A stretch of DNA of 64,000 nt from Acidimicrobiales bacterium (GTDB lineage Bacteria > Actinomycetota > Acidimicrobiia > Acidimicrobiales > SKKL01), in NCBI GenBank assembly GCA_034521975.1, contig JAXHLR010000006.1, positions 620,001 to 684,000 of the forward strand. Direction: 5' to 3'. This document shows positions 45,338 to 51,603 of the stretch, in pieces. A program made the position numbers and the translations under genes. The stretch's first letter is position 1, and the number at the start of each line of letters is the position of its first letter. The notes beneath the pieces were generated by a model, which saw only the letters and a list, made by a program, of their open reading frames with translations, searched no databases and was not told the DNA's origin.

Positions 45338-45790
45338 TCACCGGTCGTCCACCCGGTCGACGACGTCGGTCTCGTCGACCCGCCAGTCCAGCTCGGCCAG
45401 GTCCGGAGCCAGCTCGAGCAGCGGCACCTGGACGAAGCGCCGCTCGAGCATCCGGGGGTGAGGCACCTCCAGATCGGGCTCGTCGATCCGGACCCCGTCG
45501 ATCCACACGATGTCGACATCGAGGGTGCGTGGCCCCCACCGCTCGACCCTGACCCGCTCGGCGGCAGCCTCGAGGCGGGCGCAGAGCCCGAGCAGTTCCC
45601 GGGCGTCGAGCGCGGTGTCGAGCTCGACCACCATGTTGAGGTACGGCCCTTGTGCCTCCGGCCCGCCGACCGGGGCGGTCTCATACACCGACGACGTCGC
45701 CACCAGATCCGGCATGGCGGTCACCGCCTCGCGGAGGCGAGCCCGCCGGTCGCCGAGGTTGGACCCGAGTGCCAGAAGTGCCCGGGCCAC
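45338..45790 (-). CDS. folK: 2-amino-4-hydroxy-6-hydroxymethyldihydropteridine pyrophosphokinase
   Basis: 150 residues from GTG. ALLALGSNLGDRRARLREAV, SVYETAPVGGPEAQGPYLNM, RVERWGPRTLDVDIVWIDG and VPHPRMLERRFV are the four conserved blocks; the D-x-D of LDVDIV holds the magnesium ions. Attaches pyrophosphate to the pterin alcohol for FolP. It follows folB by 3 nt. A 90-bp gap then separates it from DUF2520. Confidence 0.96.
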   Translation of the reverse strand: MARALLALGSNLGDRRARLREAVTAMPDLVATSSVYETAPVGGPEAQGPYLNMVVELDTALDARELLGLCARLEAAAERVRVERWGPRTLDVDIVWIDGVRIDEPDLEVPHPRMLERRFVQVPLLELAPDLAELDWRVDETDVVDRVDDR

Positions 45791-45793
45791 CGC

Positions 45794-46171
45794 TCAACCA
45801 CCACGGGTGCGGGCGATGGTCACGCCCGCGGTGTCGAGATGGACCGGCACCGGTGGACGCAGCTTGCGGACCGTCACGGTGACCGCACGGACGTGCTGGG
45901 ACGCGAGCACCGCGGTGGCGATGGCCTCGGCCAGACGTTCGAGCAGCACGAACCGGGTCTCGTCGACGATCGTGGAGACGACCTGGGCCAGGTCGCCGTA
46001 GTCGACGGTGTCGGCCAGATCGTCGGAGGCGCCGGCGGGCGCAAGGTCAGCCACCACGTCGAGATCGATCTCGAAGGGTTGGGCGCGCTCGCGCTCCTCG
46101 GGCAGCGCACCGCAGATGCCGACCGCCCGGATGCCCCGCAGCTCGATGCGGTCGGCTTCGGGACCGGTCAC
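45794..46171 (-). CDS. folB: Dihydroneopterin aldolase
   Basis: 125 residues from GTG 46171, overlapping the preceding stop (GTGA). IELRGIRAVGICGALPEER, FEIDLDVVADL, DTVDYGDLAQVV, FVLLERLAEAIATAVL and VTVTVRKLRPPVPVHLDTAG match FolB, with the catalytic Lys in RKLRPP and the substrate-binding Glu in LLERLAE. Splits dihydroneopterin to hydroxymethyldihydropterin. Between the phosphatase-like gene and folK. Confidence 0.95.
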   Translation of the reverse strand: MTGPEADRIELRGIRAVGICGALPEERERAQPFEIDLDVVADLAPAGASDDLADTVDYGDLAQVVSTIVDETRFVLLERLAEAIATAVLASQHVRAVTVTVRKLRPPVPVHLDTAGVTIARTRGG

Positions 46172-46686
46172 GTCTGCTCGGGACCGGGAATCCGACCCGC
46201 CACCGCGATCAGCTCGCGGCCGTCGGGGTCGAGCTGGCGCCCGGTGAGCTTCTCGATGGCGTTGATGGTGTCGGGACCGGTCTTGATCAGGCCGGTCCAC
46301 AGCAGGTAGCCCGCCGCCACGCCACAGACACGGTCGCCGAGCTCCTCGCCGTGGACGAGCAGCTTGCCGCCGGAGGTGAGCAGCGAGCGCATCTGGGGGT
46401 AGAGCACGGTGAGCACTCGGGGCGCATCATCCTGGGCGGCGAACGGGCAGTGCACCCACTCGACCCCCAGCTCGTCGTAGTTGTGGAGGTTGTGGGCCGA
46501 CGGGATCAGCGACACCACTCTCGTGAACCCCTGCTCGCGGACCCAGATGATCTCTTCCTGGCGACGGACCTTGCGGTGGTTGTGGCCGTACCCACCCGGT
46601 CGTTCGCTGATGGCGAGCTTGTCCTTGATGATCCACGAGAAGTGCCGTGGGGTGATGCCTTGTGCCCATTTGCCCTTCATGGCCAT
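46168..46686 (-). CDS. Dual-specificity-phosphatase-like protein without the catalytic Cys
   Basis: 172 residues from ATG 46686 (an ATG two codons in is equally possible; GGAGA upstream). The layout follows atypical dual-specificity phosphatases: FSWIIKDKLAISERPG start, FTRVVSLIPSAHNL strand, VEWVHCPFAAQDDAP holding the general-acid Asp position, then the phosphate loop. Where active enzymes have H-C-x5-R, this protein has H-G-E-E-L-G-D-R (112-119): the His and Arg remain but Gly113 replaces the nucleophile. It sits between folP and folB, coupled to folB by GTGA. I infer a pseudophosphatase or binding protein linked to folate synthesis. Confidence 0.7.
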   Translation of the reverse strand: MAMKGKWAQGITPRHFSWIIKDKLAISERPGGYGHNHRKVRRQEEIIWVREQGFTRVVSLIPSAHNLHNYDELGVEWVHCPFAAQDDAPRVLTVLYPQMRSLLTSGGKLLVHGEELGDRVCGVAAGYLLWTGLIKTGPDTINAIEKLTGRQLDPDGRELIAVAGRIPGPEQT

Positions 46687-46717: not shown

Positions 46718-47569
46718 TCAACCGGCGACCACCATGGCTGCATCTCGTGCCGGGCGCACATCGTGCACCCGTACCATCCTCGCACCCTTCGCGAGGCCCC
46801 AGGCCACCGTGGCCACGCTCGCCTCGATCCGGTCGTCGACCGGGACCGGTCCCTCGGCGGGGACACCGGGGTCGACGAGGGCGGCCTCGCGCAGGACCGC
46901 CCGTTGCGCCCGGGCCCAGCCGGCCCGGTCGGAGTCGGCGAGCGCCGCACCCAGGAACGCCTTTCGGCTGGTCCCCACCAGCACCGGAAAGCCGGTGGCG
47001 CACAGATGGTCGAGGTGGGCGAGCAGGGCCAGGTTGTGCTCGGCGGTCTTGGCGAACCCGATGCCGGGGTCGATCCAGACCTCGTCCACGCCCCCGCGAC
47101 GCGCCGCCTCGGCCATCCTCGTCAGCTCGGCGGCGACCTCGGCGACGACGTCGTCGTAGTGGGCGAGCGATTGCATGGTGGCGGGTGTGCCGCGGCGGTG
47201 CATGGCCACCCACCCGACGCCGAGCTCGGCGGCGACCGGCGACAGCGAACCCGACACGTCGTTGATGAGCGTGGCCCCGGCAGCCACCGCCGCTCGGGCG
47301 ACGTCGGGCTTGGTGGTGTCGATAGAGACCCGGATGTGGGGCGAGAGAGCCTCGATGACCGGCTGCACCCGTGCCAGCTCGGTGTCGCGGTCGACCTCCT
47401 CGGCGCCCGGTCGGGTCGACTCGCCGCCGACGTCGACCAGGTCTGCTCCCTCGGCGATCAGGGCCCTCCCGTGCTCGATCGCCGCGGCGTGGTCGAGATA
47501 GCGGCCCCCGTCGGAGAACGAGTCGGGGGTCACGTTGAGGATCCCCATGACGAGGGGGAGCTCGGTCAT
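46718..47569 (-). CDS. folP: Dihydropteroate synthase
   Basis: 283 residues. LVMGILNVTPDSFSDGGRY, VDVGGESTRPGAEEV, ISIDTT-type strand (VSIDTTKPDVARAA), LINDVSG, WIDPGIGFAKTAEHN and LVGTSRKAFLG are the canonical sites for pterin and p-aminobenzoate. Condenses the pterin pyrophosphate with pABA; the target of sulfonamides. The ATG overlaps the HAD stop (ATGA). The canonical folE neighbour is missing. Confidence 0.97.
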   Translation of the reverse strand: MTELPLVMGILNVTPDSFSDGGRYLDHAAAIEHGRALIAEGADLVDVGGESTRPGAEEVDRDTELARVQPVIEALSPHIRVSIDTTKPDVARAAVAAGATLINDVSGSLSPVAAELGVGWVAMHRRGTPATMQSLAHYDDVVAEVAAELTRMAEAARRGGVDEVWIDPGIGFAKTAEHNLALLAHLDHLCATGFPVLVGTSRKAFLGAALADSDRAGWARAQRAVLREAALVDPGVPAEGPVPVDDRIEASVATVAWGLAKGARMVRVHDVRPARDAAMVVAG

Positions 47570-48221
47570 CGCCCGAGCGTACCGGCGAGCTCGACGGGCG
47601 TGTCGACGATGACGCTCGCCCCCGCCTCCTCCAGCTCGTTCCGGCTACCGAATCCCCAGGTGACGCCGACGGGGACGAGCCCGTGGTGGCGGGCAGCCTC
47701 GATGTCGTGGTGACGGTCGCCGATCATGACGCTCGACGCCCGGTCGAACGGCGACAGCGCCTCGATGGCACGACCGAGCGTGTCGACCTTGGGTTCTGGT
47801 GGGCTCAGCGGAGGCCCGGTGATCGTCTCGAAGTGCCGATCGAGGCCCAGGTGTTCGAGGATCGGTACCGCGTAGACCGACGCCTTCGAGGTGCACACGG
47901 CCAGCCGCTCTTCGCGCGCCAACTCGACCAGCAACTCGGGTATGCCGTCGTAGGCGACGGCCAGGTCGATCGAGGTCGGCAGGTAGCGGCTCCGGTAGGC
48001 CTCCACCAGGGGTTCGACCAGATCGTCGCTCTTGCCTCGCTCGGCGAGGATGCCGGCAACGGTGTCCTGCAGGGGTGGGCCGATGTAGCGCGCGATGTCG
48101 TGGCGGGAGATGGGCTCGAGCCCGAACTGGGCAAGTGCCGCGTTGTGGCAGGCGAGGATCGGCTCGGTCGAGTCGAGGATGCACCCGTCGAGGTCGAACA
48201 CGACCACCCGTCGGTCGAGCA

Positions 48222-48222
<1 letters not shown>
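47566..48222 (-). CDS. HAD-family phosphatase (phosphoglycolate phosphatase-like) in the folate operon
   Basis: 218 residues. Complete HAD motifs: VVFDLDGCILDS (nucleophile D10, acid/base D12), VCTSKASVYAVPI (motif II), PEPKVDTLGRAIEAL (motif III Lys), SSVMIGDRHHDIEAARHHGL (motif IV). Helical cap of the Gph/PGMB subclass. Translationally coupled on both sides (TGATG with ftsH, ATGA with folP) and placed where folE often lies. Removal of phosphate from dihydroneopterin phosphate is a plausible role given the operon; general phosphoglycolate phosphatase is the alternative. Confidence 0.88.
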
Positions 48223-50069
<1,847 letters not shown>

Positions 50070-50709: not shown

Positions 50710-51603
50710 CTAGCGGTGTTCGAGTCGCAGCCGCGAGTCGCTGCGTCTCACCTGCCACCCGCCGGTGACATCTGCCGCCTTGGCCGTCCCGGTGGCGACC
50801 TCGAGGACCCGCTGGACCGCAGCGGAGTCGACCGGGTGATCGAGTCCCGCAGCGTCGCTGACCCACCGGCGGATCGCCACCCTGGCCAGCGCCACCGGAG
50901 CCGAGGCGAGGGCACGTGCGTCGGTGGGGTCGAGCGGTGCCGCCTCGGCGGCGAGGTGGTCGACCGCGTCGCGCACCAGCTCGGCCTGGCGAGCGACGAG
51001 GGGGGCTACGTCGCGCCGGGCGATGTCGTCCAGCAGTGGGAGGGCCTCGTGGCGGATGCGGTTCCGGCGGTGGCGCGGGTCGGCGTTGCTGGGATCGACC
51101 AGCGGTTCGAGCCCCAGCTCGGTGCAGAGCTGCTCGGTCTCGTGCCGGCGGAGCCGGAGCAGGGGGCGGCCCTCGGCGCGCATGCCCGCCAACCCGTCGA
51201 GCGCCGCTCCCCGGATCAGGTTCAACAGCACGGTCTCGGCCTGATCGTCGGCGGTGTGACCCGTGAGCACCCCCGGTGGCAGGACCGCGTAGCGCGCCTG
51301 GCGGGCCCGGGCCTCGAAGTTGGGACCGGGCTCGACCGCGACCCGTCGGGAGTCGAAGGCGGCACCGAAGCGCGTGGCCGCCGCCGCAACGACCTGGGCC
51401 TCGGCGGCCGACCCCACTCGCGAGCCGTGGTCGACGTGCACCGCGGTGACCTCGCAGCCGGCGGCCACGGCGAGCACGAGCAGCGCGAGCGAATCGGCGC
51501 CGCCGGAGACCGCGCAGGTGACGGGGGTGGCCGCAGGAGGGAACCGGCAACGGGGAAGCAGCCGGGTGGCGACGGATGGGGCCGGCTCCGGCCGGATGGT
51601 CAC
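50710..51603 (-). CDS. tilS: tRNA(Ile) lysidine synthetase
   Basis: 297 residues. The PP-loop is CAVSGGADSLALLVLA; VTAVHVDHGSR, LTGHTADDQAETVLLNLIRG and the LVDPSNADPRHRRNRIRHE stretch are TilS-specific. Converts C34 of the CAU-anticodon tRNA-Ile to lysidine, changing its decoding from Met to Ile. It is short, lacking the C-terminal domains of larger TilS, as in actinobacteria. 15 bp after the metalloprotease gene. Confidence 0.95.
   Translation of the reverse strand: MTIRPEPAPSVATRLLPRCRFPPAATPVTCAVSGGADSLALLVLAVAAGCEVTAVHVDHGSRVGSAAEAQVVAAAATRFGAAFDSRRVAVEPGPNFEARARQARYAVLPPGVLTGHTADDQAETVLLNLIRGAALDGLAGMRAEGRPLLRLRRHETEQLCTELGLEPLVDPSNADPRHRRNRIRHEALPLLDDIARRDVAPLVARQAELVRDAVDHLAAEAAPLDPTDARALASAPVALARVAIRRWVSDAAGLDHPVDSAAVQRVLEVATGTAKAADVTGGWQVRRSDSRLRLEHR

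Follow-up and report, generated by a model that had tools for sequence, protein, structure and literature searches.

A dual-specificity-phosphatase-like protein without a catalytic cysteine, encoded in the folate operon of Acidimicrobiia, is probably not a folate protein

The window, by which we mean the whole 64,000-nucleotide stretch of Acidimicrobiales DNA analyzed here, contains an open reading frame at 46168..46686 on the minus strand (reading from 46686 to 46168) whose translation of 172 residues (172 codons) resembles a dual-specificity phosphatase (DSP) without the catalytic Cys. The first-pass annotation had placed this DSP-like gene correctly but left its strand unstated. Its upstream neighbor is folP (46718..47569, minus strand; Pfam Pterin_bind, 5.5e-77), which ends at 46718, 31 bp from the ATG of the DSP-like gene at 46686. 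Downstream, folB (45794..46171, minus strand; Pfam FolB, 2.5e-32) starts with a GTG at 46171 that overlaps the TGA stop of the DSP-like gene in the sequence GTGA (46168..46171, minus strand). Both the spacing to folP and the coupling to folB are as originally described. Next comes folK (45338..45790, minus strand; Pfam HPPK, 2e-37), and tilS lies farther upstream (50710..51603, minus strand; Pfam ATP_bind_3/TilS). Between ftsH and folP, the window also carries a gene for a HAD-type hydrolase (47566-48228, minus strand) that is present in only six examined loci (L001, L002, L003, L082, L083 and L084, with L002 and L082 identical in sequence); this hydrolase is more likely than the DSP-like gene to supply the unassigned pterin-phosphate phosphatase step.

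Orthologues of the DSP-like gene were found in 187 of the 198 genomes of the order, with one match per genome in all but one genome, and the family extends across the class. When 396 genomes from across the phylum were searched with the protein and with a profile, members turned up only in the class and in an outlying family, f80, whose relatives are 25-37% identical. Close pairs showed dN/dS values of ~0.1-0.3. Given this distribution and these values, the DSP-like gene is a real gene, and it is under purifying selection even in the folate-less pair L121/L122 (dN/dS ~0.10). The dN/dS values rule out local decay into a pseudogene.

The DSP-like protein alone matched nothing in Pfam or NCBIfam at E 10, and its only DSP match in the PDB was marginal (25xa, E 0.069). 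When 60 family members were compared with Pfam and NCBIfam, the best match was Tc-R-P at E 0.0075, and none was above its curated cut-off. A family profile made from an alignment of 60 relatives (A1) matched 25xa, an active DSP, at E 1.1e-11 over most of its length, followed by VHR/DUSP3 at E 0.0014. With the same alignment as input, AlphaFold2 produced a model with a pLDDT of 93.8 and a pTM of 0.89. The best Foldseek match to this model was VHZ/DUSP23 (4erc, E 4e-8), and VIA-align superposed it on DUSP23/VHZ (2img) with a Z of 19.0 and an rmsd of 2.1 over 146 residues; structure comparison gave Z values of 15.1 for STYX (2r0b) and 15.8 for PTEN (1d5r). On the basis of the profile match and the AlphaFold2, Foldseek and VIA-align results, we consider a DSP fold along the whole chain to be settled, as a prediction. 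Profile search and structure prediction agree on the DSP-type fold that had been proposed for this protein, and neither pointed to an unrelated fold. The predicted fold says nothing about the ligand.

Where DSPs read HCxxGxxR(S/T), the DSP-like protein reads HGEELGDR (residues 112-119; 46330..46353, minus strand), a degenerate P-loop whose register we took from alignment to the P-loops of 25xa and VHR. His112, Gly113 and Arg119 are exactly as first reported, and the missing nucleophile is a property of the family: none of 149 sequences contained HCx5R (Cys with Arg at +6), and no active orthologue turned up in the retrieved loci. Gly113, whose invariance the first-pass annotation had raised as a question, proved variable, with G, Q, A, R, S, H, N, D or L at this position across the class. 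Cys occurs there once among 143 class sequences, in L127, whose HCEEVSDK has Lys in place of Arg. The Gly at +3 of HCxxGxxR is absent from all 149 sequences, with L, V, I, F or M in its place in the class, and the Ser/Thr at +7 is V, L, I or M in nearly all class members (T in 4). Arg119 is replaced in about one-fifth of the distinct class sequences. Since the P-loop Gly is gone from every member and Arg119 from some, the family has lost more than its nucleophile. His112 is invariant in the class, and most class sequences have acidic residues at P-loop positions 114, 115 and 118. The earlier picture of a phosphate pocket that outlived its nucleophile fits poorly with these changes, and judged from the sequences a working phosphate cradle at the old site is doubtful. 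The acid Asp region, described as present, is so only loosely: most class members are acidic at Asp86/Asp87, but conservation does not extend to the column that aligns with the catalytic Asp of 25xa. DUSP23, for its part, has no standard D-loop Asp (PMC13147768).

Conservation is strictest in residues 28-45 (ERPGGYGHNHRKVRRQEE; 46552..46605, minus strand), a family-specific basic loop and the start of helix 1. R29, G31, G32, H37, R38, R41, R42 and E45, together with H112, are invariant in all 120 distinct class sequences, and seven of these nine residues are charged or His. The HRxVRR segment aligns with a six-residue gap in 25xa, and so is not common to that closest active DSP. In the AlphaFold2 model, residues 29-34 form a loop and residues 35-51 form helix 1, with lower confidence across the block 31-40 (mean pLDDT 77). 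The basic residues stay fixed even where the P-loop reads HRDIIDDT, and also in all but one (L143) of the six f80 relatives whose P-loop reads HCDRxxEW; therefore, they must do more than pair with the P-loop acids. We infer from this conservation that an anionic partner would bind at the basic loop-helix. PTEN has a positively charged "arginine loop" between p-beta-2 and p-alpha-1, and this loop helps the protein to bind membranes (PMC4700475). The basic loop of the DSP-like protein occupies the equivalent place between strand and helix 1, a likeness of position; PTEN differs in being catalytic and in having a C2 domain.

STYX has lost its Cys and is otherwise P-loop-like. The DSP-like family shares with STYX and with the pseudophosphatases DUSP24/DUSP27 a DSP fold in which the catalytic Cys is replaced, in STYX by Gly (PMC13147768). 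Unlike STYX-type proteins, it has also lost the Gly at +3 and the Ser/Thr at +7, its Arg is variable and its position 113 is not fixed. It resembles DUSP23/VHZ and the VHZ-like PTPs of archaea and bacteria (Tk-PTP, SsoPTP, TpbA and 25xa) in its whole-length fold and in its profile match to 25xa, but it lacks their Cys, P-loop Gly and, in nearly all members, the Ser/Thr after Arg, and has an HRxVRR segment that is extra relative to 25xa. The one literature library searched yielded no paper on a bacterial DSP pseudophosphatase family; the family described here is kept by purifying selection in nearly the entire class, has no match in Pfam or NCBIfam, and has a sharply defined invariant site.

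The typical gene order in much of Acidimicrobiia is hprt-ftsH-folP-X-folB-folK-DUF2520-panC-nadB, where X is the DSP-like gene, and the median gap between folP and the DSP-like gene is 5 bp (114 loci). Other genomes depart from this order in several ways. Those of f63 have folP-X-folK, and their folB lies elsewhere. At L077 it is hprt-ftsH-X-DUF2520-panC, with folP, folB and folK gone from both sides, in a genome of unknown completeness that has no HPPK; at L077, L074 and L035 alike, the DSP-like gene still follows ftsH while folP is gone. In f7, the f41-like group and L042/L059, the upstream neighbor is tilS (assigned through Pfam in L028 and L151, and elsewhere by similarity to those two) and no fol gene is nearby. 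These groups form three separate, well-supported clades, as read from the gene tree itself, and in the loci that we read, zincin and sigma-factor genes lie further upstream. Upstream of its DSP-like gene, the window too has zincin and tilS, in the series zincin-tilS-hprt-ftsH. From the patterns of gene loss, the contexts at L077, in f63 and beside tilS, and this upstream series, the gene order around the DSP-like gene looks inherited, not functional. In five genomes (G241, G483, G509, G518 and G253), HPPK is present twice, with one copy next to the DSP-like gene and the other next to folB elsewhere.

We compared the presence of the DSP-like gene with that of HPPK (folK) in 153 good genomes (≥90% complete, ≤5% contaminated), bearing in mind that completeness estimates do not guarantee that folate genes are truly absent: 142 had both, 4 had only the DSP-like gene, 7 had only HPPK, and none had neither. 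In the four genomes with the gene and no folK (G064, G087, which is 98% complete, G160 and G185), FolB and FolP were not detected either. FolE of family PF01227 is likewise missing from G064, G160 and G185, and with it the usual source of dihydroneopterin triphosphate. Conversely, HPPK occurs without the DSP-like gene in G032, G050, G082, G117, G125, G148 and G173, and in G032, G050, G082, G125 and G148 folP adjoins folB with no space for a 500-bp gene between them. The DSP-like gene is thus kept without folB, folK and folP, and is absent where a folP-folB-folK operon is kept. Because it survives in bacteria without folate synthesis, its product is probably not a folate protein, although it may act together with salvaged folates, which strains without folate synthesis still have to import. 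The tight, order-wide linkage to folP-folB-folK is contradicted by these gene-loss patterns, a caution on guilt by association. Replacement of GTP cyclohydrolase by the DSP-like protein was also considered and rejected: the window's own genome has folE, on another contig, and no FolE2. In three genomes without the DSP-like gene (G032, G050 and G117), folE directly precedes folP. Three f7 genomes (G006, G134 and G435) have folB and folK and no PF01227 FolE, and another GTP cyclohydrolase is expected there.

These results leave little room for the proposal of the first-pass annotation that the DSP-like protein may bind a pterin phosphate or regulate FolB/FolP. Synteny with folP across the order would normally suggest a functional link, and the tight spacing, the recurrence of folP-X-folB-folK through much of Acidimicrobiia and the translational overlap that the window shows with folB all speak for a pterin role; the two-way dissociation from folate genes, the three genomes that also lack folE, and the persistence of the DSP-like gene at L077 after folate genes were lost on both sides make it very improbable. 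Our literature search found no papers joining folate operons with DSPs. A partnership with a non-folate gene of the cluster, most likely that for TilS (tRNA-Ile lysidine synthetase), HPRT or FtsH, would account for the position directly behind tilS in three clades, where no hprt, ftsH or fol gene intervenes, and for the position behind ftsH at the three loci where folP is gone; RNA or a nucleotide would be a possible ligand of the basic patch. However, deletion of the intervening genes suffices to explain adjacency to tilS, f80 relatives adjoin genes for a 4HBT thioesterase and for polysaccharides, and tilS is, to our knowledge, near-universal in bacteria, whereas the DSP-like gene is not; we consider such a partnership improbable.

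We favor, with moderate confidence, a class-wide pseudophosphatase that would bind an anionic partner through its new basic loop-helix and whose position in the folate operon would be inherited. A protein with a DUSP23/VHZ-type DSP fold, lacking the catalytic Cys, the P-loop Gly and the Ser/Thr and kept by purifying selection in Acidimicrobiia, would act by binding rather than hydrolysis. Its Gly-rich loop (PGGxxxxHRxVRRxEE), which corresponds in position to the arginine loop of PTEN, may hold an RNA, a lipid head group, or a protein or metabolite that carries phosphate. Conserved acids now line the old pocket, which might be structural or might pair with the arginines of the loop-helix. The gene's place in the operon would reflect inherited order in a large housekeeping cluster, zincin-tilS-hprt-ftsH-folP-X-folB-folK-DUF2520-panC-nadB. 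The synteny with folP at 114 loci counts against this explanation, and the strict conservation of charged residues would also fit a new active site. A non-canonical enzyme could re-use the DSP fold, with His112/Asp118 and R29/H37/R38/R41/R42/E45 as its candidate active site and a poly-anionic substrate. The nine invariant residues exceed the usual needs of a scaffold, the Gly-rich loop keeps its invariant residues despite lower model confidence, and the single-copy gene is kept order-wide. But the P-loop acids and position 113 differ between clades, there is no known catalytic motif, and no neighbor points to a common substrate across contexts, which makes an enzyme unlikely. More broadly, and tentatively, a stripped DSP fold may have gained a strictly invariant His/Arg/Glu site (PGGxxxxHRxVRRxEE with His112); on that same tentative footing, the site could serve a new reaction or the sensing of a poly-anionic signal, as part of near-universal Acidimicrobiia housekeeping.

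The f80 relatives (L143-L148), the only members found outside the class, were also considered as active phosphatases and rejected: their HCDRxxEW keeps the Cys, but Trp replaces Arg and the Gly at +3 is missing. In the single-contig genome G273, which holds L143, the frame diverges from that of its relatives after HCDRANEWL, possibly through a frameshift.
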